A stretch of 24,343 nucleotides of DNA from positions 1-24,343 of IMG/VR virus record IMGVR_UViG_3300034418_000325, one strand, 5' to 3'. Below the pieces are notes generated by a model. The model was not told where the DNA came from and did no database searches. It worked only from the letters and a program-made list of their open reading frames with translations. Below are positions 1-23,761 of the stretch, piece after piece. Numbering within the stretch: position 1 is the first letter of the stretch; every line of letters begins with the position of its first letter. This stretch comes from a virus. The position numbers and the translations under genes are program-made.

Positions 1-1083
1 TCAAAGGTTGAGGTTGATAACGACTTTGTGCAGAGTTCTAAAGAAGTTGAGGTTGTGTTTTCTCCTTCTCCGTTAGTGAATGACAACCCATCGAACCGAA
101 TCATTCCAGCAATTTGGGACGCTGATATTGAAGAAGGAGCAAAGCCAACAGACGCAAATATTCGGATTCTTTACTATGGCGGCTTAATACCAAGCGACCC
201 GACTTGGGTGCATCGAAGAACGATAAACCTACAAGACACATTTAACTCGACCTATCCATACGCGGGACATTGGGACGAGCCGATAACGCCAACAGTTGAC
301 ATTAACTTCGGATTGCCTTACGAACTCTACTATCAAGCAAATAGTTACACGGGTACGGTTCAGGTAACGAACGCGAATCTCTTTAACATCTACCACCGAA
401 ACTATATCAACGAGGTAACGGATAAGGACTCGAAGGTTATGACTGGGCTTTTTTACTTAGAGCCGACCGACATTAACACGCTTGACTTTCGCGACCAGAT
501 TGTAATTGATAACGCTTACTGGAGGCTCAACAAGGTAATGAACTACAACCCTTTCAAGGAGGGATTAACGAAAGTGGAATTGATAAAAATCAAAGAACCC
601 GTTACCTTCCAAGAGGCAAGCAAGAGCCTGAACGCAAGCGGTTACTTAGGACTGGAAAGACTGCCCAACCCATCGACTGAAATAAAGACCAACGGCAACA
701 AGTACCCACCGTTTCAGGGAAAGGTTAGCGGAGCGGAGAACGTAGTCGGACAGAGCGTTACGGCTTTCAAGGTAGTTGGTAGCCGCAACACAATCGGAGA
801 GGGTTCTAAAAACATTACAATCTTCGGAAACGACAATGAAGTTCAGGGCGGTCTATTCAACGTGCAACTGATAAACACGAACGGGGTTATTGTAACTGAG
901 TCAAACGTTACTTATGTAAACGGCAAAGAACAAGACAACGTTGAAGTTTTGGAAGGCGGAGAGAATGAAGTCCGGGCGTTGAATGGAGGAACTAACATCT
1001 TCACGGTTGACGGAGGCGAGGACATAGTTCAGACACAATTTTCTGAAATAGCTATTTACTTAATAGAAGGCGGAGAAAACTAA
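1..1083 (+). CDS. Baseplate/tail structural protein with beta-helix-like C-terminus (5' partial)
   Basis: The frame is open from the first base, so the gene starts before the window; the GTG at 28 is only an internal codon. About 360 residues are visible. The first ~215 resemble a long tail or baseplate protein type I associate with Bacteroidota phages (short aromatic stretches such as RILYYGG and YPYAGHW). The last ~130 are rich in G, N and V in short repeats (VVGSRNTIGEG, ITIFGNDNEV), as expected of a right-handed beta-helix or carbohydrate-binding stack. The stop overlaps the next start (TAATG). A virion role is an inference from this fold pattern and from the tail genes beside it; the exact position in the tail is unknown. 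Confidence 0.7.
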   Translation, partial: SKVEVDNDFVQSSKEVEVVFSPSPLVNDNPSNRIIPAIWDADIEEGAKPTDANIRILYYGGLIPSDPTWVHRRTINLQDTFNSTYPYAGHWDEPITPTVDINFGLPYELYYQANSYTGTVQVTNANLFNIYHRNYINEVTDKDSKVMTGLFYLEPTDINTLDFRDQIVIDNAYWRLNKVMNYNPFKEGLTKVELIKIKEPVTFQEASKSLNASGYLGLERLPNPSTEIKTNGNKYPPFQGKVSGAENVVGQSVTAFKVVGSRNTIGEGSKNITIFGNDNEVQGGLFNVQLINTNGVIVTESNVTYVNGKEQDNVEVLEGGENEVRALNGGTNIFTVDGGEDIVQTQFSEIAIYLIEGGEN

Positions 1084-3963: not shown

Positions 3964-3992
3964 GTGGCACAATACAAACACTTTGCTATTTA
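3964..3992 (+). promoter_or_regulatory. Phage-type promoter P1 (GTGGCAC / TTTGCTATTTA)
   Basis: GTGGCACAA begins at 3964, directly after the protease stop, and CTTTGCTATTTA ends at 3992. The same two blocks occur at 6308 and 19575 with identical spacing (GTGGCAC start to TTTGC start 18 nt; GTGGCAC to the YATTTA hexamer 16 nt). It lies 43-15 nt before the scaffold ATG at 4007. The spacing suits a -35/-10 pair of the sigma-70 class; the TTTG part alone also resembles a Bacteroidota -7 element, but no -33 TTG is in place. Promoter function is inferred from the repeated motif and position. Confidence 0.7.
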
Positions 3993-4006: not shown

Positions 4007-4633
4007 ATGAACATCTCAGAATTAGTCGGGTCTAAACTTCCCGAAATCAAGAAACTGTTATTCAGCGAAACCGAAGAGAAATTCGAGGACGCTAAACTTG
4101 TGGACGGCACTATTGTACGTTACGAGGTTTTGGAAATTGGCGCGGCTTTGTCAGTTGTTGGCGAGGACGGAGAAATCGTTGCCGCTCCTGACGGGGAACA
4201 CGAACTCGAAAGCGGAGTTGTTGTAAGAACTGAAGGCGGTCTTATTGTTGAGATTCTTGAGCCTGAAGCTGAACCAGTTGAAGAAGAAGCTGGAGACGAG
4301 GAGAAAGAGGAAGAGATGTCAGCAGACGAAACAACCGAAGAGACTGCTGAGGAAACTACCGAAGAAGTAGTTGCCGAGTTTGACGCTGAGGCGTTCAAAT
4401 TGGACATTATGGACTCTGTAGCTACTTTGATACAAGCAGAGGTTGAGAAGTTCGCCAAGACTGAGAAGGTCGGAGAAATCGAGAAAGCGGTTGGTCTAAT
4501 TACAGACATCGTTGAGAAGATGGCGGCAACACCGAAAGAAGAGCCAACGAAGAAGGTTGCTAACCCGTTCAATAAGGGAACAAACTATGTCGAAATCGCT
4601 GAGAAGATGAGAGCGGCAATTACAAAGAAATAA
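4007..4633 (+). CDS. Capsid scaffold protein
   Basis: 208 residues from the ATG at 4007. An earlier in-frame ATG at 3932 would overlap the protease gene and run through promoter P1, so I reject it. The N-terminal ~85 residues (MNISELVGSKLPEIKKLL ...) contain beta-rich VRYEV and VVRTEGG stretches. Residues ~85-125 are a very acidic Glu/Thr run, followed by a helical segment (AFKLDIMDSVATLIQAEVEKF) and a basic C-terminus (KKVANPFNKG). An acidic, helical protein between the protease and the capsid gene is the usual signature of a scaffold, which would be removed by the upstream protease. No enzymatic motif is visible. Confidence 0.75.
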   Translation: MNISELVGSKLPEIKKLLFSETEEKFEDAKLVDGTIVRYEVLEIGAALSVVGEDGEIVAAPDGEHELESGVVVRTEGGLIVEILEPEAEPVEEEAGDEEKEEEMSADETTEETAEETTEEVVAEFDAEAFKLDIMDSVATLIQAEVEKFAKTEKVGEIEKAVGLITDIVEKMAATPKEEPTKKVANPFNKGTNYVEIAEKMRAAITKK

Positions 4634-4654: not shown

Positions 4655-5647
4655 ATGGGATTTTCACCATCACCACTAACGAGCGTACTTCAGGCTTATA
4701 TTGAAGAGCAGAATTATCCACTAATCGCGAAGGCGTTAACATCTTCGCCAACTATGGCACTTGCTGAAAAGCAACTAAACGTAAAAGGCAAGAGTGCTAT
4801 CAACTTAGCTGATATTGACGTAACCTTCCAAGACGGAAGCGGTTGCGCTTGGAACGAGGACGGAGACATTACTCTGACTCAGAGATTTATCGACCCAGCG
4901 AAATTGAAGTTGAACATGGAGTTCTGCCCGAAAGAATTGGAGGCTATCTACCTTAGAACTCAACTTCCAAGCGGAGCGCACCAAGAAGCTATTCCTTTCG
5001 AGGAGTTCTTTTCTGATTACTTAGTAAGCAAGATTGCGGCTGAGTTGGAAAAAATGATTTGGAAGTCTGTTGGTTCAACTCCGACTTCATCACTTCCTAC
5101 TGGTTCGGGTAACTTCCAATTCTTTAACGGTTTCCGTGACGCGATTCTTGGAGGTTCTTACATCGATGCAAACACCGCTAACCACGGTTCGGGTACGCCA
5201 TTGACTGCACTTAACGCCACAACGATGCTTGAGGCAGTTCAGAGAGTTTACGAAGCGGCTGCGGATGCAGTTGTTGAGAGCGATGACGCAGTTGTATTCG
5301 TATCTGCAACTAAATTCAGAAGCCTTGCCATTGGAATCCAAAACGGTCTTGGTTCTTTCGTAAGCGATGGAGGTCAGCTACAAGGTTACCAAACTGAAAT
5401 GGGTGGTTTGTCAATGGTTATGCCGGGAACAAACTTGAGAATCCAAGCTACAAGCGGACTTAGCGGAACTGAGGATGTTTACCTTGCTCGTACTAGCAAT
5501 ATGTTCATTGGAATGGACTTGGAAGAAGATGCTTCACGCATCGAATCTTGGTACTCTCAAGATGACCGTAAATTCAAAATTGCGGTCGAAATGACAGTTG
5601 GCGCACAAGTGGCGTTCCCAGACCAAATATCGGTTATCAATATCTAA
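4655..5647 (+). CDS. Major capsid protein (HK97-fold type)
   Basis: 330 residues. Position (protease, scaffold, then this gene) and composition fit an HK97-fold capsid subunit: an N-terminal helical arm, an E-loop/P-domain-like middle, an ATKFRSLAIGIQ helix near 220, and a C-terminal strand run (DRKFKIAVEMTVGAQVAFPD) typical of the family's A-domain end. It would assemble the icosahedral head after scaffold removal. Codon use is markedly regular (many gga, aac, gtt, ctt), as expected of a highly expressed gene. It is served by promoter P1 and followed by a strong UUCG hairpin at 5654, which may protect or end its message. Confidence 0.85.
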   Translation: MGFSPSPLTSVLQAYIEEQNYPLIAKALTSSPTMALAEKQLNVKGKSAINLADIDVTFQDGSGCAWNEDGDITLTQRFIDPAKLKLNMEFCPKELEAIYLRTQLPSGAHQEAIPFEEFFSDYLVSKIAAELEKMIWKSVGSTPTSSLPTGSGNFQFFNGFRDAILGGSYIDANTANHGSGTPLTALNATTMLEAVQRVYEAAADAVVESDDAVVFVSATKFRSLAIGIQNGLGSFVSDGGQLQGYQTEMGGLSMVMPGTNLRIQATSGLSGTEDVYLARTSNMFIGMDLEEDASRIESWYSQDDRKFKIAVEMTVGAQVAFPDQISVINI

Positions 5648-6217: not shown

Positions 6218-6233
6218 AAAGCTATCTTTGCTC

Positions 6234-6256
6234 ACTCTCTATTGAGAGTTCTTTTT
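6234..6256 (+). terminator. First of two tandem terminators
   Basis: ACTCTC and GAGAGT form a 6-bp stem with a TATT loop, followed by TCTTTTT. It lies 17 nt after the stop at 6217. The short AU-rich stem suggests modest strength, backed up by the terminator at 6275. A TATCTTTG sequence at 6223-6230 fits a Bacteroidota -7 element but lacks a -33 partner. Confidence 0.6.
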
Positions 6257-6274
6257 CATAGTTCTGTTGGAGAT

Positions 6275-6304
6275 GCCCTGACTTCGGTCGGGGCTTTTCT
6301 TTTT
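6275..6304 (+). terminator. Strong Rho-independent terminator with UUCG loop
   Basis: GCCCTGAC and GTCGGGGC form an 8-bp stem (one U-G pair) closed by C(UUCG)G and followed by TTTTCTTTTT. This is the best intrinsic terminator in the window. It ends the capsid unit a few bases before promoter P2 at 6308, insulating the two structural operons. Confidence 0.85.
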
Positions 6305-6307
6305 AAT

Positions 6308-6336
6308 GTGGCACAAAAACAAACTTTTGCTATTTA
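6308..6336 (+). promoter_or_regulatory. Phage-type promoter P2
   Basis: GTGGCACAA at 6308-6316 and CTTTTGCTATTTA ending at 6336, with the same spacing as P1 and P3. It directly follows the terminator at 6275-6304 and precedes the ATG at 6350 by only 13 nt, so the message would have a very short leader. A promoter right after a terminator and before a new gene is strong positional support. Confidence 0.72.
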
Positions 6337-6802: not shown

Positions 6803-7185
6803 TAAACATCGAACGAAATAGTGCTAACGAGATAGCCTTAACTCTCACCGAGAGAGGCACGGCTACCTATTACCTCTTCAAGTTCCAATCGGATAACACG
6901 GAGGCAGTAAAGTATTGCATTGCAACGGATTCAAGCGCATATCCCGAAAGGTTTAACAAGTTCACAATTACAGAACAGACAAGCCCTGACAACTTGAACG
7001 CGGAGGTCGAACTACCAACCGAAGGACAATGGCGATATTTTGTTTATGCTAACTCTTCAAGTTCAAACCTTGACCCGACTGGGTTGTTAGAATTAGAAAG
7101 CGGAATTGTGAAAGTAACGGGAACACAAACACCAGTTACCAGCTACTCAGGCGGTAACTCAACTTATGTAGTTTATGGGTCTTAA
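6799..7185 (+). CDS. Small virion protein, unrecognised (TTG start)
   Basis: 128 residues. The start is TTG at 6799, overlapping the previous stop as TTGA; no ATG gives a sensible alternative, and MINIERNSANEIALTL at the front looks like a genuine N-terminus. Predicted beta strands (TYYLFKFQS, WRYFVYANSS) and an S/T/G-rich C-terminus fit a small immunoglobulin-like or decoration-type virion protein. The gene overlaps the portal start by 11 nt. The function is not known; location in the P2 structural operon is the main evidence. Confidence 0.55.
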   Translation: MINIERNSANEIALTLTERGTATYYLFKFQSDNTEAVKYCIATDSSAYPERFNKFTITEQTSPDNLNAEVELPTEGQWRYFVYANSSSSNLDPTGLLELESGIVKVTGTQTPVTSYSGGNSTYVVYGS

Positions 7186-9259
7186 AGTATTGAACTTCGG
7201 AGCGCACAAAGTGCCGACCTTCAAGGAGGCAAGGGGAAAGGATTGGATTCTATTCGGAGATGAAGGGGAATACAAAAACCGTTACCCAGAGTACCTTCTG
7301 AACCTTTACAGAAGAAGCGCGAAAAACCACGCGATTATAAACTCCAAAAAGGATTATGTTGTCGGTCAGGGCTGGGCAATAGACAAGGAAGGACTCGACA
7401 CGCTTGGACTTGCACGGCTTCAACAGTTCGTTGAGGAGCCTAACCAATACGAGTCTTTAAACGACATCTTGGAGAAGGTCGCACTCGATTACGAACTTTA
7501 TAACGGCTTTGCTCTTGAGATTGTTTACAACCAGCTTAACGACAAGATTGCGGCTATTTATCACGCAGACTTTGCAAGGTATCGAAGCAACGAGGACGGT
7601 TCTTGTTATTACTATTCTGAAGATTGGGGAAAGCATAACCCAGTAGTTGAGAAGATTGACGCTTTTGACTGGAAGAACCCAAGCGGCAAACAGTTACTTT
7701 ACGTTAAAGGTTACTCTCCTGACTGCAAGTACTACCCACTACCGACCTACTTAGGTTCAACGGGTTACATTGAACTCGATGTTGAGATTGCAAACTTCCA
7801 TTTAAACGCGGTCAAGAACAACTTTGTCGGTGGCACTATTGTATCTTTTTACAATGGAGAACCAACGCAAGAGGAACAAGAGGAAATCGAGCGACAGATA
7901 AAGGACAAGTTCACGGGAACGGATAACGCTAACTCAATAGTGTTAAACTTCGCGGACTCAAGAGACAGAGGAGTAGAGATTCAGCAGTTAAACGGTAACG
8001 ACTTCGACAAGCGTTTTGATATTCTAAACAAGACCGTACAACGTGAAATTTACGCGGGGCATCAAGTAACCGACCCGGCACTATTCGGAATCAAGGAGGA
8101 CGGAATATTTACAAGCCGAAACCAGTTGGTAGACTCCTTTGAGTTGTTCCAAAACACCTATGTAAACAACCGTCAACAATTCATTGAGCGAGTGTTCAAC
8201 GAGTTGGCGGCTTTGCAAGGCTTGAAAAACTGCCTATACATTCAAGACACCGAACCGATAAGCGTTCAATTCTCAGAGGCAACGGTTACTTCGGTAATGA
8301 CAGAATCGGAAATACGTGAGAAAGTAGGGCTACAAGTTGTTCAAACTGAGGAGGATTCTACGGTTGACAGCAAGACCAAAGACGCTCAGGCTGCACTTAA
8401 AGGCTCTGTCGGTGGTGTTACTGGAATCATTACACTACTTCAAAACGTTAAAGAGGGACTTATCGCAGAAGCTTCGGCTATCTCAGTTCTTACCGAGTTG
8501 TACGGATTCACTCCTGAGACTGCAAGGGCTACGGTTACGGGCGAAGTTATACCTGAGAACGTGGCGGCAGAGATGCGCTCAGTATTTGAGAAGCAAGACG
8601 AGGACGCTATTCTAATTGAATACTTTAAGAACTGCGGCTCTACGGATTACGAGCCAGTAGGAAACGGCAAGGCGTTAAACTTTGAAAGTGAAACCTCCGC
8701 GAAACTACACGAGGAACTTAATCGAAAGTATTGGTTTGCTGAAGTAGACCCGATTGATACGGCTATTCTGAACGTATTAAAAGAGAACCCATCGACTCCG
8801 TTTATCGCAATCGCAGAGCAGTTACAACTTTCAATTGAGAGGGTTATGGCTGGACTTCAGGCATTGAACGAAGCGAACGCCATTAAGATAGCAATAGACG
8901 AAGTTCTCGACTCAACTCAAAGATTGGTTGAAGTAACCGAAGAAGGCGAACGACTACTTGAGGAAATACCACCAGTTGAGGAGGAGTTTGTAATTCGTTA
9001 CTTCTATGCTTTGAGACCTGAAGCTGGAGGCAGACAAGACGGAAGCATTGAGTCTGACTTCCTTATTCCAACGAGTAGAAAGTTCTGCGAAGATATGCTT
9101 GAACTCCGAAAGGAAGGGAAAACTTGGAAACTAACCGAGATTCAGAATTTAGGCGTTAGTCAGAACCGTAACGTTTGGATGCGAGGCGGTGGCTTTTGGG
9201 GCAAGTCTTACCATTGCCGACACTACTGGGAGCAACAACTTATGAGAATTAAGAAGTAA
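7175..9259 (+). CDS. Portal protein fused to winged-helix and MuF-like C-terminal regions
   Basis: 694 residues. The first ~400 match an HK97-type portal: an early YRRSAKNHAIINSKKDYV segment, a YELYNGFALEIVYN strand, and the DRFD-like NDFDKRFDILNKTVQREI helix followed by GIKEDGIFTSRNQLVDSF. The portal is the dodecameric ring through which DNA enters the head. Residues ~525-571 look like a winged helix (ILNVLKENPSTPFIAIAEQL then a recognition-type helix). Residues ~603-694 carry the SRKFCEDML ... RGGGFWG ... HCRHYWEQ pattern typical of SPP1 gp7/MuF head morphogenesis domains. The fused C-terminus would replace a separate minor head protein, and none is seen nearby. Confidence 0.8.
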   Translation: MGLKVLNFGAHKVPTFKEARGKDWILFGDEGEYKNRYPEYLLNLYRRSAKNHAIINSKKDYVVGQGWAIDKEGLDTLGLARLQQFVEEPNQYESLNDILEKVALDYELYNGFALEIVYNQLNDKIAAIYHADFARYRSNEDGSCYYYSEDWGKHNPVVEKIDAFDWKNPSGKQLLYVKGYSPDCKYYPLPTYLGSTGYIELDVEIANFHLNAVKNNFVGGTIVSFYNGEPTQEEQEEIERQIKDKFTGTDNANSIVLNFADSRDRGVEIQQLNGNDFDKRFDILNKTVQREIYAGHQVTDPALFGIKEDGIFTSRNQLVDSFELFQNTYVNNRQQFIERVFNELAALQGLKNCLYIQDTEPISVQFSEATVTSVMTESEIREKVGLQVVQTEEDSTVDSKTKDAQAALKGSVGGVTGIITLLQNVKEGLIAEASAISVLTELYGFTPETARATVTGEVIPENVAAEMRSVFEKQDEDAILIEYFKNCGSTDYEPVGNGKALNFESETSAKLHEELNRKYWFAEVDPIDTAILNVLKENPSTPFIAIAEQLQLSIERVMAGLQALNEANAIKIAIDEVLDSTQRLVEVTEEGERLLEEIPPVEEEFVIRYFYALRPEAGGRQDGSIESDFLIPTSRKFCEDMLELRKEGKTWKLTEIQNLGVSQNRNVWMRGGGFWGKSYHCRHYWEQQLMRIKK

Positions 9260-13979: not shown

Positions 13980-14176
13980 TAATCTTCTTGTTGACCGTTT
14001 CGCTTTGTCTCCTTCTGCTTGTTGTCGGTTTGCTGGTCTATCTTTTGTACGCGGTCCGGGCGATAATCGACACGCAAGAAGTTATCTTTGACGCGGCAGT
14101 CAACGCGGAAGAAATGTATAAGGACATCGAGATGAATCAAGAGGCTATTATGAACGCTTACTCAAGACAGAACTAA
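13976..14176 (+). CDS. Small membrane protein
   Basis: 66 residues: a strongly hydrophobic helix at 1-27 (FLLTVSLCLLLLVVGLLVYLL) followed by a polar, slightly acidic helix. It overlaps the phosphoesterase by four bases. No motif is recognised. It could be a second holin, an antiholin or a superinfection factor; its place at the very end of the late operon, before the early promoter at 14194, fits a lysis-related role but does not prove it. Confidence 0.5.
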   Translation: MIIFLLTVSLCLLLLVVGLLVYLLYAVRAIIDTQEVIFDAAVNAEEMYKDIEMNQEAIMNAYSRQN

Positions 14177-14193
14177 AAAAATTTAATCCATTG

Positions 14194-14225
14194 TTTTGGA
14201 TATTCAAAAGTAATTTAGATATTTG
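14194..14225 (+). promoter_or_regulatory. Early host-type promoter E1
   Basis: TTTTG at 14194-14198, then 19 nt, then GATATTTG at 14218-14225: close to the Bacteroidota consensus TTG-N19-TAnnTTTG. An A-tract (AAAAAAATTTA, 14175-14185) precedes it. A near copy stands at 16447-16478, sharing TTTTG-n-ATATTCAAAAG-y-AATT-w-AGATATT. It heads the recombination operon beginning at 14243. Confidence 0.75.
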
Positions 14226-16063: not shown

Positions 16064-16430
16064 AATTGTCAAAGAGTTGGACAAGGCATTCAGTCGGTAT
16101 ATCCGATTGAGTGCTTCCAACCTTGACGGTTATTGTGAGTGCTACACTTGCGGACGTTCTTACGAACTAAAGAAAATGCAATGCGGACACTTTATGAGCA
16201 GAGCAAGGTACGCGACAAGGTGGCACGAGGACAACTGCCGACCGCAATGCTACGGGTGCAACGTAATGCAGCAAGGAAGACAGTACGACTTCGGTTTGAA
16301 CCTTGACCGGGAACGCGAAGGACTGGCGGAGGAGATGCACGAACTCAGCTTAACGACCGTCAAGTTTGCAACGTGGGAACTAGAAGAGAAACTTGCCTAC
16401 TATCGACAGAAGGTTCGGGAACTGGAATAA
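16035..16430 (+). CDS. NinG-like HNH recombination nuclease (TTG start)
   Basis: 131 residues. The start is TTG at 16035; the first in-frame ATG lies inside the zinc domain, so a non-ATG start is required. The pattern C36-x-x-C39, GHF (H52), DNCRPQC (C72-x-x-C75) followed by Asn76 matches the lambda NinG (Rap) family, which binds and cuts Holliday junctions and other branched DNA. Residues ~85-131 form a charged helical tail. It closes the recombination operon. The overlap with the SSB-like gene suggests coupled translation. NinG identity comes from the residue spacing, not a search. Confidence 0.78.
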   Translation: MKKKATSRSKIVKELDKAFSRYIRLSASNLDGYCECYTCGRSYELKKMQCGHFMSRARYATRWHEDNCRPQCYGCNVMQQGRQYDFGLNLDREREGLAEEMHELSLTTVKFATWELEEKLAYYRQKVRELE

Positions 16431-16446
16431 AAAATTTACCCTAATA

Positions 16447-16478
16447 TTTTGAATATTCAAAAGCAATTAAGATATTGC
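16447..16478 (+). promoter_or_regulatory. Early host-type promoter E2
   Basis: TTTTG at 16447-16451, 19 nt, then GATATTGC at 16471-16478. It is nearly identical to E1 over about 30 bases, including a preceding A-tract (AAAAAATTTA). It drives the second early operon from the ATG at 16529, leaving a leader of roughly 45 nt. The TTG at 16475 is part of the promoter, not a start codon. Confidence 0.72.
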
Positions 16479-17741: not shown

Positions 17742-18046
17742 GTTACCACAACACGAACAACGAAAAAGGAGCGACTCTTAAGGAGTCCCGGAAGAAAGCA
17801 AAGACTCAGGACGAAATGGTGCTGGAGTTCTTGAGAAGTCACGACCAACTCGGAGTAACACCTGAGCGAACCTTGAGGCACTTTAAGATAATGGAGAGCT
17901 TAAGCGGGAACAGATGGCACAACACGCCACTCACTTCGATAAGAAGGTCGTTCAGTAATTTGAAAAACAAAGGTTTAATTTACAAAACGGGGGACACCGT
18001 CAAGGGAGACTTCGGAAAACAAGTAGCGATATGGAGAGCGAAGTAA
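17738..18046 (+). CDS. Winged-helix protein
   Basis: 102 residues from the ATG at 17738 (ATGA junction); an earlier ATG at 17702 would overlap the previous gene by 40 nt and is less likely. The order DEMVLEFLRSHDQLGVTPERTL, TPLTSIRRSFSNLKNKGLIYKTG, then a beta wing (KGDFGKQVAIWRA) is a clean winged helix of the sort found in phage early operons. Residues 1-25 are basic and flexible. It probably binds DNA, with target unknown. The DnaA-like gene starts 16 nt before its stop. Confidence 0.65.
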   Translation: MSYHNTNNEKGATLKESRKKAKTQDEMVLEFLRSHDQLGVTPERTLRHFKIMESLSGNRWHNTPLTSIRRSFSNLKNKGLIYKTGDTVKGDFGKQVAIWRAK

Positions 18047-18573
18047 CACAACCAAGTCAAAAGTGGGCTTACGAAACGATTGAGATAATCAAGGAAGCCA
18101 TAACAGAGCGAGAAGGTAGAGTCGGCAACCAAGTCGTTAACGAACTGTCAGGAATATACGCGGACGTTCTACTCGTGGAGATTAACAAGCTACGGTCTAA
18201 CGTCAAGAGGGAACTCTACGGAGACGGCAACAACAACTCGGTCGTTGAGTTGATGAACGAGATTGCAGACATCTACAACATAACCGTTGACCAGTTAGAA
18301 CTCAAGACACGCAAGAGGCAGTTCTTAGAGCCTCGTCAACTATTCCATTGGGCAATGGTCAACAAGGTCGTTAAGAATAGCCTAACCCTTGAGCAGATTG
18401 GACAACTCACGGGCGGACACGACCACGCTACCGTCTTACATTCCAACCGTCAAGTGAAGGATAGAATCGCAACCGAGCGAGAGTTCCGTGAGATGGTTAT
18501 GCAATTCTGCAACAAGTTTGGACTGCGGACTCATTGGACTGGAAACAACATCGAAACCACGCGAGTATTATGA
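18031..18573 (+). CDS. Free-standing DnaA domain IV-like protein
   Basis: 180 residues. Residues ~75-160 match the DnaA C-terminal DNA-binding domain: DIYNITVDQLELKTRKR, EPRQLFHWAMVNKVV, LEQIGQLTGGHDHATVLHS, then the NRQVKDRI helix. GGHDHATVLHS (128-138) corresponds to the GG-x-DH-TTVLH signature that reads DnaA boxes; His replaces the usual Arg. There is no AAA+ ATPase domain, so it cannot load helicase alone. Residues 1-70 are helical and of unknown fold. It may act at the phage origin, compete with host DnaA, or regulate promoters. It lies upstream of the initiator gene at 19739. Confidence 0.8.
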   Translation: MESEVTQPSQKWAYETIEIIKEAITEREGRVGNQVVNELSGIYADVLLVEINKLRSNVKRELYGDGNNNSVVELMNEIADIYNITVDQLELKTRKRQFLEPRQLFHWAMVNKVVKNSLTLEQIGQLTGGHDHATVLHSNRQVKDRIATEREFREMVMQFCNKFGLRTHWTGNNIETTRVL

Positions 18574-19574: not shown

Positions 19575-19603
19575 GTGGCACAAATTGCTAACTTTGCCAT
19601 TTA
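19575..19603 (+). promoter_or_regulatory. Phage-type promoter P3
   Basis: GTGGCACAA at 19575-19583 and CTTTGCCATTTA ending at 19603, with the spacing of P1 and P2. This copy also has an exact TAACTTTG (19589-19596) like the Bacteroidota -7 element, but no TTG 19 nt upstream. It would transcribe the structured leader and the replication block, and possibly the sigma-like gene at 21023. Confidence 0.7.
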
Positions 19604-21022: not shown

Positions 21023-21547
21023 GTGAAACAACAAGCCGCAATCGACCTACTTGCAGACGAGGAACTCCACGAACTCGCGGATAAGTTGTGCAACTGCCCG
21101 GACGACTTGATTCAGGAAGTCGCAATGGTTCTACTGGAGATGACCGAAGAGAAATGGAATCAGATTAACGAAGGCGGTTACTTGCGGTTTTACGTGGTTA
21201 GAACAATGATGACAATGGCGACCAGTCCGCGTTCCAGCTTCTCGAAACTCTACGACCTCCACAACCATAAGAAGGTTGACCACGAGAGAGAGGACTACGA
21301 TTGGGAAAAAGAAGAGGACATTTCGTTGATTGAAACACTTATGCAAGAGTTGCATTGGTACGACCGCGAAGTTCTTAAACTATGGCTGGAAGAAGGCAGT
21401 TACAGAAAGGTCGCGAAGAAGGTGGGCATACCTTACAAGAGCATCGGCAACACCGTAAAGAAAACAATAGAAACACTTAGAGCGAATTACTATGGAATAC
21501 ATCTTGAGCGCATTATCCGGGAGCGTGTTAAGCTTCCTTTGGATTGA
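21023..21547 (+). CDS. Sigma-factor-like protein (region 2 and region 4 pattern)
   Basis: 174 residues, GTG start. Residues ~15-80 resemble sigma region 2 (PDDLIQEVAMVLLEM, then GGYLRFYVVRTMMTM). An acidic linker (~85-103) follows. Residues ~104-155 resemble region 4 (LMQELHWYDREVLKLWLEEGS, then the HTH RKVAKKVGIPYKSIGNTVKK). The two-domain size and spacing are those of an ECF-type sigma factor. If so, it would steer host RNA polymerase to phage promoters, and the repeated GTGGCAC/YATTTA promoters are the obvious candidates. Region 2 is weaker than region 4, so a simple HTH regulator is an alternative. Confidence 0.65.
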   Translation: MKQQAAIDLLADEELHELADKLCNCPDDLIQEVAMVLLEMTEEKWNQINEGGYLRFYVVRTMMTMATSPRSSFSKLYDLHNHKKVDHEREDYDWEKEEDISLIETLMQELHWYDREVLKLWLEEGSYRKVAKKVGIPYKSIGNTVKKTIETLRANYYGIHLERIIRERVKLPLD

Positions 21548-21743
21548 AGTCTTTGGCATTGACCTACTTCTAAAAAAGTGGCTTGGAATGAACGAGAGCC
21601 AGTCTTTTAAGCCGTTAGACTGTCGGCTTTGTTTGTCGTTTTGGTTTGGAGTTCTTTACTGCGCTAACGACCCGGAGGCACTTCTTTACGTTCCTCTCCT
21701 GAGTGTTTTGTTTGAGCGGTTAATGTGGAGGTTTGAAATATGA
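21492..21743 (+). CDS. Small membrane protein with C-x2-C-x3-W motif (DUF1360-like)
   Basis: 83 residues. An N-terminal hydrophobic helix (ILSALSGSVLSFLWIEVFGIDLLL) and a second one (~48-75) flank DCRLCLSFWFG, where C44, C47 and W51 recall the C-P-x-C-x-x-x-W motif of DUF1360 membrane proteins. The start overlaps the sigma-like gene by 56 nt, long but the only ATG before the first helix. Function unknown; membrane placement is clear. Confidence 0.55.
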   Translation: MEYILSALSGSVLSFLWIEVFGIDLLLKKWLGMNESQSFKPLDCRLCLSFWFGVLYCANDPEALLYVPLLSVLFERLMWRFEI

Positions 21744-21823
21744 GCGATGCAGTTACATTCTGTTGCATATTGCTTTTATTGGTTTGGATTGTACGAATTT
21801 TAAAAGGAGAAAATTTTAACTAA
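21740..21823 (+). CDS. 27-residue transmembrane peptide
   Basis: ATG at 21740 overlaps the previous stop (ATGA) and the stop overlaps the next start (TAATG). The peptide is one helix (VTFCCILLLLVWIVRIL) with a short polar tail. Junctions on both sides match those of the neighbouring real genes, which supports translation. Too short to assign a function; small phage membrane peptides can be holin-related or exclusion factors. Confidence 0.5.
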   Translation: MSDAVTFCCILLLLVWIVRILKGENFN

Positions 21824-22065
21824 TGGACAAAAAACAACTTTTGCTATTTATCAAAGAGAGGCACGAGGCACTAAGTAGAATGAAAGCCGCGAAGTTCTCA
21901 GGACGAATAACACGAGAAGAACAGAAACTTTACCAAGATGCTTGGTCGTACATTGACCCGAAAGCAAAGGTTTGTTTTACTTGTGGAAGGAGTCCGCAGA
22001 TTATGAGTGTTGCTCTTCTGAACTATTACGAAGCCAACAAACCAAAGAGACGCAAAAAGAAGTGA
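21823..22065 (+). CDS. Small basic protein with one C-x-x-C motif
   Basis: 80 residues. Helical N-terminal half (LLLFIKERHEALSRMKAAKFSG, EEQKLYQDAW), a single CFTCGRS pair near residue 51, and a KPKRRKKK tail. The basic end and cysteine pair would suit nucleic-acid binding. The start sits in a TAATG overlap. Bases 21838-21850 in this gene resemble the CTTTTGCTATTTA half of promoter P2, but the upstream GTGGCAC is missing. Function unknown. Confidence 0.5.
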   Translation: MDKKQLLLFIKERHEALSRMKAAKFSGRITREEQKLYQDAWSYIDPKAKVCFTCGRSPQIMSVALLNYYEANKPKRRKKK

Positions 22066-22594: not shown

Positions 22595-23102
22595 GGTTAG
22601 ACCAAACTCGGACAACCCGCGTTACATCAAGGACGAGAAGTTTAAGAAGTTGGTTCAATCGCTCCGGGACTTTCCTGAGATGGCTAACGTCCGACCGATA
22701 GTCGTTAACAAAGAGATGATAGTCCTGGGCGGTAATATGCGCTTAAAGGCAATGCAAGAAGCTGGATGGTCAGAGGTACCCGTTCAAGTTGTTGATTGGT
22801 CAGAAGAAAAACAGCGCGAGTTCATCATCAAAGACAACGTAGGGTTTGGAGAATGGGACTGGGACGAGTTGGCGAATACTTGGAATGAAATGGAATTAGA
22901 TGCTTGGGGTTTAGATGTTCCGAACTTTCTTGAAATGCCGACAGATGAAGATTTGATAGGAGAAGAAAAGAACAAACCAGCGACTATGAAAATAACATTC
23001 ACAAGCCCCGAACAACTGCAAAGTGCTGAGATTGACATTCAAGAACTACTTGACCGAAAGTATCAAGGTGCGTTCTTTTCCGTAAGTGCTGGAGAGATAT
23101 GA
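22572..23102 (+). CDS. ParB/sulfiredoxin-like nuclease-fold protein
   Basis: 176 residues. Residues 1-90 show the ParB N-terminal domain pattern: IAISKVRPNSDNPR, PIVVNKEMIVLGGNMRLKA (52-61, corresponding to the G-G-x-R nucleotide-binding box) and EVPVQVVDWSEEKQREFIIKDN. The C-terminal half (TMKITFTSPEQLQSAEIDI ...) is a separate small domain. ParB-fold phage proteins bind or cleave nucleotides and are often found beside DNA methylases and terminases. Here the Mom-like gene follows directly (ATGA). A role with Mom in DNA modification is possible but unproven. Confidence 0.75.
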   Translation: MDYIAISKVRPNSDNPRYIKDEKFKKLVQSLRDFPEMANVRPIVVNKEMIVLGGNMRLKAMQEAGWSEVPVQVVDWSEEKQREFIIKDNVGFGEWDWDELANTWNEMELDAWGLDVPNFLEMPTDEDLIGEEKNKPATMKITFTSPEQLQSAEIDIQELLDRKYQGAFFSVSAGEI

Positions 23103-23683
23103 GATTAGAAAAGGCATCATATAAAGCAGTAAAATACGCTTGCTTAAAGTTTCACTATGCAAAAGTCTGCCCGGTTGTTGGAATTGCTTTTTCAGTATTC
23201 AATAAAAGTAATCAATGGTGTGGAGTGATTACATTTGGATATGGTGCCTCAGCAAATATGGGTAAGCCATACGGATTAAAGCACGGACAATACTTGGAAC
23301 TAACAAGGATGGCTTTGAATGGTAAGCAAGAGAGCACATCAAAAGCAATGGCTATTGCAATGAAGTTAATTAAGAAGAAATGCCCAACAGCAAAGCTGTT
23401 AATTAGCTATGCAGACAAAGGTCAGAATCATAAAGGTATTATTTATCAAGCTACAAATTGGCATTTAGTAGATGAAAGTGAAAGCTCAGGCAATGAGGTA
23501 TTTTATAAAGGTAAATGGGTACACGATAGAGGACCAAATACATTGCCAAAAGAACAGAGAGAAAAACTAACATACAGGAAGAAAAGCGGAAAATACAAAT
23601 ACGTCTACCCACTTGACAAATCTTTAGTACCTTTATGCCAGTCGCTGGCGAAACCATATCCAAAAAATGCGTCAGAAGTGTAA
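23099..23683 (+). CDS. Mom-like DNA adenine modification protein
   Basis: 194 residues. The pattern LKFHYAKVCPVVGIAFSVF, a QYLELTRMALNG strand-helix (64-75) and LLISYADKGQNHKGIIYQ plus ATNWHLVDE (100-126) matches the Mom family of GNAT-fold enzymes. In phage Mu, Mom adds a methylcarbamoyl group to adenine and so protects DNA from many restriction enzymes. The C-terminus is basic. Base use is clearly more AT-rich than in neighbouring genes (many aaa, tat and att codons), suggesting recent arrival. It follows the ParB-like gene in an ATGA overlap, and its last codons form part of the tRNA at 23669. Confidence 0.75.
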   Translation: MRLEKASYKAVKYACLKFHYAKVCPVVGIAFSVFNKSNQWCGVITFGYGASANMGKPYGLKHGQYLELTRMALNGKQESTSKAMAIAMKLIKKKCPTAKLLISYADKGQNHKGIIYQATNWHLVDESESSGNEVFYKGKWVHDRGPNTLPKEQREKLTYRKKSGKYKYVYPLDKSLVPLCQSLAKPYPKNASEV

Positions 23684-23738
23684 TGGTTGCACATTCTACT
23701 TCCAGTAGAAAGGAGGAGTTCGATTCTACCCTGACGCT
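23669..23738 (+). tRNA. tRNA-Gly, anticodon UCC
   Basis: GCGTCAG (23669-23675) pairs 7/7 with CTGACGC (23731-23737). The D-arm GTGT-AATGGTT-GCAC is the usual tRNA-Gly form, the anticodon stem TTCTA/TAGAA is perfect, and the loop CTTCCAG gives anticodon TCC (23701-23703), reading GGA. The T-loop TTCGATT is standard, but the T-stem has two mismatches or a bulged A, the variable loop is short, and position 8 is A rather than U. TCACCA follows. Function may be weakened. GGA is visibly the favourite glycine codon here, so a supplement makes sense. It starts 15 nt inside the Mom-like gene. Confidence 0.72.
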
Positions 23739-23761
23739 CACCAAACAACGAAATAACAGCG

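Follow-up and report, generated by a model that had tools for sequence, protein, structure and literature searches.

Known phage sigma factors and their promoters

To our knowledge, late sigma factors of phages with mapped bipartite promoters are known mainly from enterobacterial phages. In Salmonella phage 7-11, gp47 is a sigma factor with regions 2 and 4, and its late promoters, GTAAtg-(16)-aCTA, were read in vitro (PMC8948821); a computational precursor of this work was also published (PMC4331800). Between phage 7-11 and phage phiEco32 the promoter positions are kept and the sequences are changed (PMC8948821). The phiEco32 sigma factor gp36 reads middle and late phage promoters together with the host core polymerase (PMC8948821, PMC4331800). 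Its promoters consist of a single element, tAATGTAtA, and gp36 has no region 4 homology. A literature search revealed no study of sigma/promoter pairs in phages of Bacteroidota, and no transcription study of the cultured Nonlabens phages P12024S/P12024L (Inhavirus), whose gp33 and gp35 are annotated with Sigma-70 region 2 and lie between replication-type genes and terminase.

The locus analysed here belongs to an IMG/VR virus record, and the window is the whole stretch of 24,343 bases. It resembles phage 7-11 in a phage sigma with regions 2 and 4, in bipartite promoters before late genes, in promoter positions kept while the sequences diverge among related phages, and in early genes that would be read by the host holoenzyme. 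It differs from phage 7-11 in promoter sequence, host phylum and genome type. The link between sigma and promoter was shown by in vitro transcription in phage 7-11, whereas we infer it for the window phage. Phage 7-11 was reported without middle promoters, whereas the window has a site (P3) before the replication/sigma block, overlapping a host-type element. Like gp36 of phiEco32, the window protein would read phage promoters with the host core, but it has region 4 and its sites have a -35 element. With gp33 and gp35 of P12024S/P12024L it shares the location between replication-type genes and terminase.

The system is therefore of a known kind (7-11, phiEco32), and what is new is its own specificity, another phylum and a broad lineage of Bacteroidota phages. 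It provides a sigma-promoter pair for phages of Bacteroidota, a phylum with atypical primary sigma and promoters. Diverged sigma/promoter pairs could show how region 4 specificity evolves, and the sigma with its promoters might be put to use for orthogonal gene expression in Bacteroidota. The cultured relatives P12024S/L make the sigma-promoter proposal directly testable.

The phage and its host

The window covers part of the genome of a tailed phage, and nearly all its genes lie on the plus strand. The closest named phages were Nonlabens phages in the portal comparison, and Nonlabens, Tenacibaculum, Cellulophaga and Flavobacterium phages (52-70%) in the phosphoesterase comparison. Because these nearest named phages infect members of Bacteroidota, this is likely the host phylum, which agrees with the first-pass annotation of a Bacteroidota phage. 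The window phage is of marine type.

The sigma-family gene and its product

21023..21547, plus strand: sigma-70-family (ECF-type) factor gene, GTG start, 174 aa (from ORF, homologues, profile and predicted structure)

The reading frame proposed in the first-pass annotation was correct, with GTG at 21023, stop at 21545-21547 and a product of 174 aa. The GTG start is common to close relatives. There were more than 60 homologues in IMG/VR with 62-99% identity, and further groups with about 30% identity. Since a peptide-pattern search found none in 84,980 bacterial and archaeal genomes (one per species), the gene looks like a phage-only lineage. A protein-level search of INPHARED with the window protein and four distant relatives gave one weak match, for one of these relatives, and none for the window protein or the other three.

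The NCBIfam model for sigma70-ECF proteins (TIGR02937) matched the window protein with E = 3.8e-9. Residues 26-154 were aligned with profile positions 26-163 of 165, which is nearly the entire model, from region 2.2 through region 4, and the same model matched 50 of 53 aligned family members. The score of the window protein, 36.4 bits, is below the curated cut-off of 42.9 bits, which is a naming rule and no biological feature. Two ECF models of Bacteroidota, NF058625 and TIGR02985, also matched significantly over regions 2 to 4, again below their curated cut-offs. With Pfam, region 4 (PF08281) was weak (E = 0.003, 17.5 against a cut-off of 25.7), and region 2 (PF04542) gave no match for the window protein on its own. 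The distant member L152 is above the PF04542 (Sigma70_r2) cut-off (24.6 versus 24.0), and the DDLIQE...YVVRT pattern of the window protein aligns with it. Region 2 is thus placed by the TIGR02937 alignment and this pattern, which is profile evidence.

An AlphaFold2 model made with 53 diverse sequences reached pLDDT 87 (56 with 32 near-identical sequences) and showed two helical domains with a linker of low confidence (84-90) between them; its pTM was 0.46, so the arrangement of the domains is unsure. Model residues 94-161 fitted on region 4 of E. coli sigmaE with -35 DNA (2h27) with Z 9.3 and rmsd 1.7 over 68 residues, and together with the weak PF08281 match this places region 4 and its helix-turn-helix (HTH). 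The PDB matches listed by Foldseek were sigma factors or transcription-initiation/holoenzyme entries, with E no better than 0.011, and structure matches in BFVD include phage proteins annotated as sigma-70, with E down to 3.7e-8. Whole-length structural alignments span model residues 1-163 at a large rmsd, owing to a domain arrangement that is either different or poorly predicted.

The first-pass annotation had described a region 4-like HTH preceded by region 2-like helices. Profile and predicted structure agree with both, and the comparison which could have revealed a lack of region 2 instead placed a region 2-type domain besides region 4. The protein has a two-domain build without regions 1.1 and 3, and its 174 aa lie within the range of about 160-190 aa. 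By profile and model, the product of 21023-21547 is a compact two-domain sigma-70-family (ECF-type) protein.

The 3' end of the sigma gene is overlapped by 56 nt, in another frame, by a gene for an 83-aa hydrophobic protein (21492-21743, plus strand) with a CxxCLSFW motif. Relatives retain this pair, even those of clade C, where L278 and L281 have CGFCLSFW. No Pfam family was above cut-off for the 83-aa protein, which is a possible candidate for a membrane partner such as an anti-sigma.

The proposed promoter element and its sites

The motif GTGGCAC, which had been proposed as the promoter read by this protein, occurs five times in the window versus 1.33 expected. Only the copies at 3964, 6308 and 19575 belong to a longer repeat; those at 7830 and 16220 are inside ORFs, are of another type and were taken as chance. 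Aligned upstream regions of homologous genes showed a bipartite element, TGGCACA-N15-TATTTA, with GC directly ahead of TATTTA. The proposed sites were therefore real, and the element is longer than had been noted. The 'TTTGC' part of the first alignment is conserved only in part. All 29 distinct P1 sites carry GCTATTTA without change, and among the 23 distinct P2 sites only two deviate, by T>C at one position.

1031..1058, plus strand: candidate promoter P5, weaker, AGACACA-N15-TATTTA, at the 3' end of ORF 28-1083, 24 nt before ATG 1083
3965..3992, plus strand: promoter P1, TGGCACA-N15-TATTTA, 14 nt before ATG 4007 of the scaffold-position gene
4007..4633, plus strand: first gene after P1, scaffold candidate by position between prohead protease and capsid candidate
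4655..5647, plus strand: second gene after P1, major capsid candidate by position; conserved with the block; phrog_11320 (function-unknown family)
6309..6336, plus strand: promoter P2, TGGCACA-N15-TATTTA, 13 nt before ATG 6350, heading the portal block
7175..9259, plus strand: portal gene, identified, within the block after P2
19576..19603, plus strand: promoter P3, TGGCACA-N15-CATTTA (TACTTA in relatives), before the replication/sigma block
21823..21850, plus strand: candidate promoter P4, weaker, ATGGACA-N15-TATTTA, overlapping the start of gene 21823

The prohead protease upstream of 4007..4633 was identified, and the scaffold identity of 4007..4633 is from position alone. P1 and P2 stand before the scaffold/capsid and portal blocks and the sigma gene lies downstream of P3, as the first-pass annotation had it. 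P1, P2 and P3 form a repeated, phage-specific class of predicted promoters before late genes, distinct from host promoters. With a matrix made from P1 and P2 sites, P1-P3 scored 28.6-39.5, and 20 shuffles of the window gave at most 9.6. No copy of the motif lies between 9.2 and 19.5 kb, where the lysis and early-type genes are. Crude dyad counting recovered the motif in the window and not in other genomes.

In all of IMG/VR, 108 stretches matched GTGGCACA-N13-GCTAYTTA exactly, and nearly all exact matches were within this phage group, mainly before the same genes. Motif patterns were used to fetch 99 loci, nine of them outside the phage group, and the P1 sites in the larger sample are partly motif-fetched. 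Because many loci were fetched with the motif itself and most not by P2, P2 is the fairest test of conservation. Of 31 in-group upstream regions, 30 have the P2 motif, and the remaining one retains just its -10 part. The P2 motif extends to a relative with a capsid protein match of only 46-48%, while 13 distant relatives, 26-36% identical in this gene, lack it. Within the close group, no P3 motif could be located among the more divergent half of the members. The reversed motif was not present in any of 23 records. As for co-occurrence of gene and motif, the sigma gene is present in 14 of the 99 motif-fetched loci, its slot lies outside another 76, and nine are not of this group; relatives that cover the slot and keep the promoters without the gene, which would have spoken against the first-pass annotation, numbered 0 of 99.

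Among the weaker sites, the -10 part of P4 is kept in all relatives listed, with a -35 part of ATGGACA or ATGCACA overlapping the start codon, and P5 is also kept in relatives. The conservation of the sites at 1031 and 21823 may be partly protein-derived, because both overlap coding sequence. A third weaker site, AGACACA, lies past terminase in relatives, outside the window.

P3 and the host sigmaA-type element

19589..19596, plus strand: TAACTTTG, host sigmaA-type -7 element (TAHHTTTG) in the P3 spacer (consensus from PMC6847099)

The sequence TAHHTTTG is the host -7 consensus (PMC6847099). It was found in all six distinct P3 spacers, which come from related phages, and in none of the 24 distinct spacers of P1 or the 17 of P2. 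Because it is kept in P3 and absent from P1 and P2, it suggests that P3 may be opened by the host first and by the phage sigma later, with self-boosting. A conserved -33 TTTG was not seen by eye at P3; for this reason, and because the six spacers come from kin, the two-step use of P3 is the least certain step. A conserved hairpin in the P3 leader was also considered and dropped, as its predicted fold is scarcely more stable than those of shuffled sequences (z -0.7 to -1.3).

Diverged relatives

In clade C, whose sigma is 31-34% identical, TTGAACA/TTATACA-N15-TATTTA stands before the scaffold gene and before the first gene equivalent to that after P2. In clade B, AGTAACA-N15-TATTTA stands before the scaffold gene. 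Relative to the window, both clades differ in the first four positions of the -35 part and retain ACA, the spacing of 15 bp and TATTTA. The ACA core recalls the AAC of ECF -35 elements. The distant clades G031, G032 and G034 showed no convincing version of the motif upstream of homologous genes. In distant clades, searching the same motif with up to three mismatches gave noise, and footprints upstream of homologous genes were used instead.

In P12024S, gp33 is syntenic with the window sigma, annotated as Sigma-70 region 2 (PF04542) and 24% identical to the window protein. This phage also has a repeated bipartite motif before virion-type genes, but it is AAACAA...CGTTAATA instead of TGGCACA-N15-TATTTA. 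There are six AAACAA-type copies (CGTTACTA once in place of CGTTAATA), each exactly 4 nt before an ATG.

167, 3019, 5400, 23949, 25189 and 26790 of P12024S (L294): motif copies, with ATGs at 179, 3031, 5412, 23961, 25201 and 26802

The motif was first spotted by eye and counted afterwards, and its regular expression matched the coding strand 12 times, with several matches to a site, the opposite strand 0 times and shuffles 0.1 times on average. The distance of exactly 4 nt to the ATG suggests that the late mRNAs of P12024S may be leaderless.

Proposed mechanism and alternative explanations

The analysis shows a gene with the homology and fold of the sigma family, and a motif of fixed spacing together with the positions and conservation of its sites. 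We consider it highly probable that the sigma encoded at 21023-21547 directs the host core RNA polymerase to the TGGCACA-15 bp-TATTTA promoters. Since the phage has its own sigma and matching two-part promoters before structural genes, it very probably redirects the host polymerase to its own late genes. The phage sigma would bind the host core RNA polymerase and recognise TGGCACA at -35 and, after 15 bp, TATTTA at -10. P1 would then serve scaffold/capsid, P2 the portal block and P3 the replication/sigma block, and the weaker sites at 1031, at 21823 and past terminase might be added. Early genes without the motif would be read by host sigmaA. At P3, host sigmaA would act first, using the overlapping TAHHTTTG; the phage sigma would follow, boost its own block from P3 and switch on the virion genes at P1 and P2. 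Core binding, recognition of P1-P3, timing and autoregulation are the parts that we infer.

It is unlikely that the protein, though derived from a sigma, has lost that function and acts as a regulator (HTH activator or anti-host factor), with the sites read by host sigmaA and this or another phage activator at TGGCACA. The sigma-model scores below curated cut-offs, the host-type TAHHTTTG kept at P3, and matches to phrog_36 'transcriptional regulator' in relatives would fit such a regulator. However, P1 and P2 lack TAHHTTTG in 41 of 41 distinct spacers, and yet they have (nearly) invariant -10-like GCTATTTA at fixed spacing. The homology also covers regions 2 to 4, and the -35 half diverges while ACA-N15-TATTTA stays, as expected of sigma recognition.

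Lower still is the probability that an alternative sigma of the host reads the sites as its promoters and that the phage protein has another role. TGGCAC is similar to the -24 element of sigma54 promoters, but these need a GG-GC spacing of 10; the spacing in TGGCAC...TTGC is 17 bp, and the sigma54 reading was rejected. Flavobacteria have several ECF sigmas and one sigma54, as this reading would require, but the motifs reported for them in PMC9723704 (TAnnTTTG, TAnnTTGY, sigma54 and the CGT-box ECF type) include none like TGGCACA/TATTTA. The exact pattern is also rare outside the phage group in IMG/VR.

A reading of the sites as something other than promoters, such as operators, a repressor site or some other conserved DNA element, would agree with the few copies and the long conserved string, but it is hardly credible with the strict orientation to genes, the two invariant blocks with a free spacer of low-information columns, the 13-15 nt to ATG at P1 and P2, the terminator-like hairpin preceding P2 and the other sequences in the same layout in relatives.

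The phage sigma reading of these promoters can be extended to a joint picture, which is more tentative and slightly less probable than its opposite. A lineage of small tailed phages of Bacteroidota would run its late genes with its own ECF-type sigma; the -35 part would drift by clade (TGGC, AGAC, TTGA or AGTA, followed by ACA) with spacing and -10 part staying, and the two-headed P3 would make a self-amplifying early-to-late switch.

Other features of the window

Residues from about 525 to 597 of the portal protein (7175-9259) form an AsnC-type winged helix-turn-helix domain (PF13404/PF13412); in the relative G017 the portal match ends at residue 403. The protein of 18031-18573 (180 residues) has the DnaA C-terminal DNA-binding domain PF08299 (E = 8e-14, residues 74-142) and no other Pfam match. 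A tRNA-Gly (TCC) at 23669-23739 overlaps the 3' end of ORF 23099-23683, upstream of a small terminase-type gene. In the early-type region there is a 48-nt direct repeat at 14176-14223 and 16429-16476 (83% identical); each copy precedes a gene start and may act as an early promoter or operator.

The stretch 6223-6300, between gene 5696 and P2, contains a host-type TATCTTTG; after it come conserved sequence and a hairpin resembling a terminator, GCCCTGACTTCGGTCGGGGCTTTTCTTTTT. It gave a weak, sub-threshold match to SorX in Rfam, and it possibly encodes a small RNA of about 70 nt.
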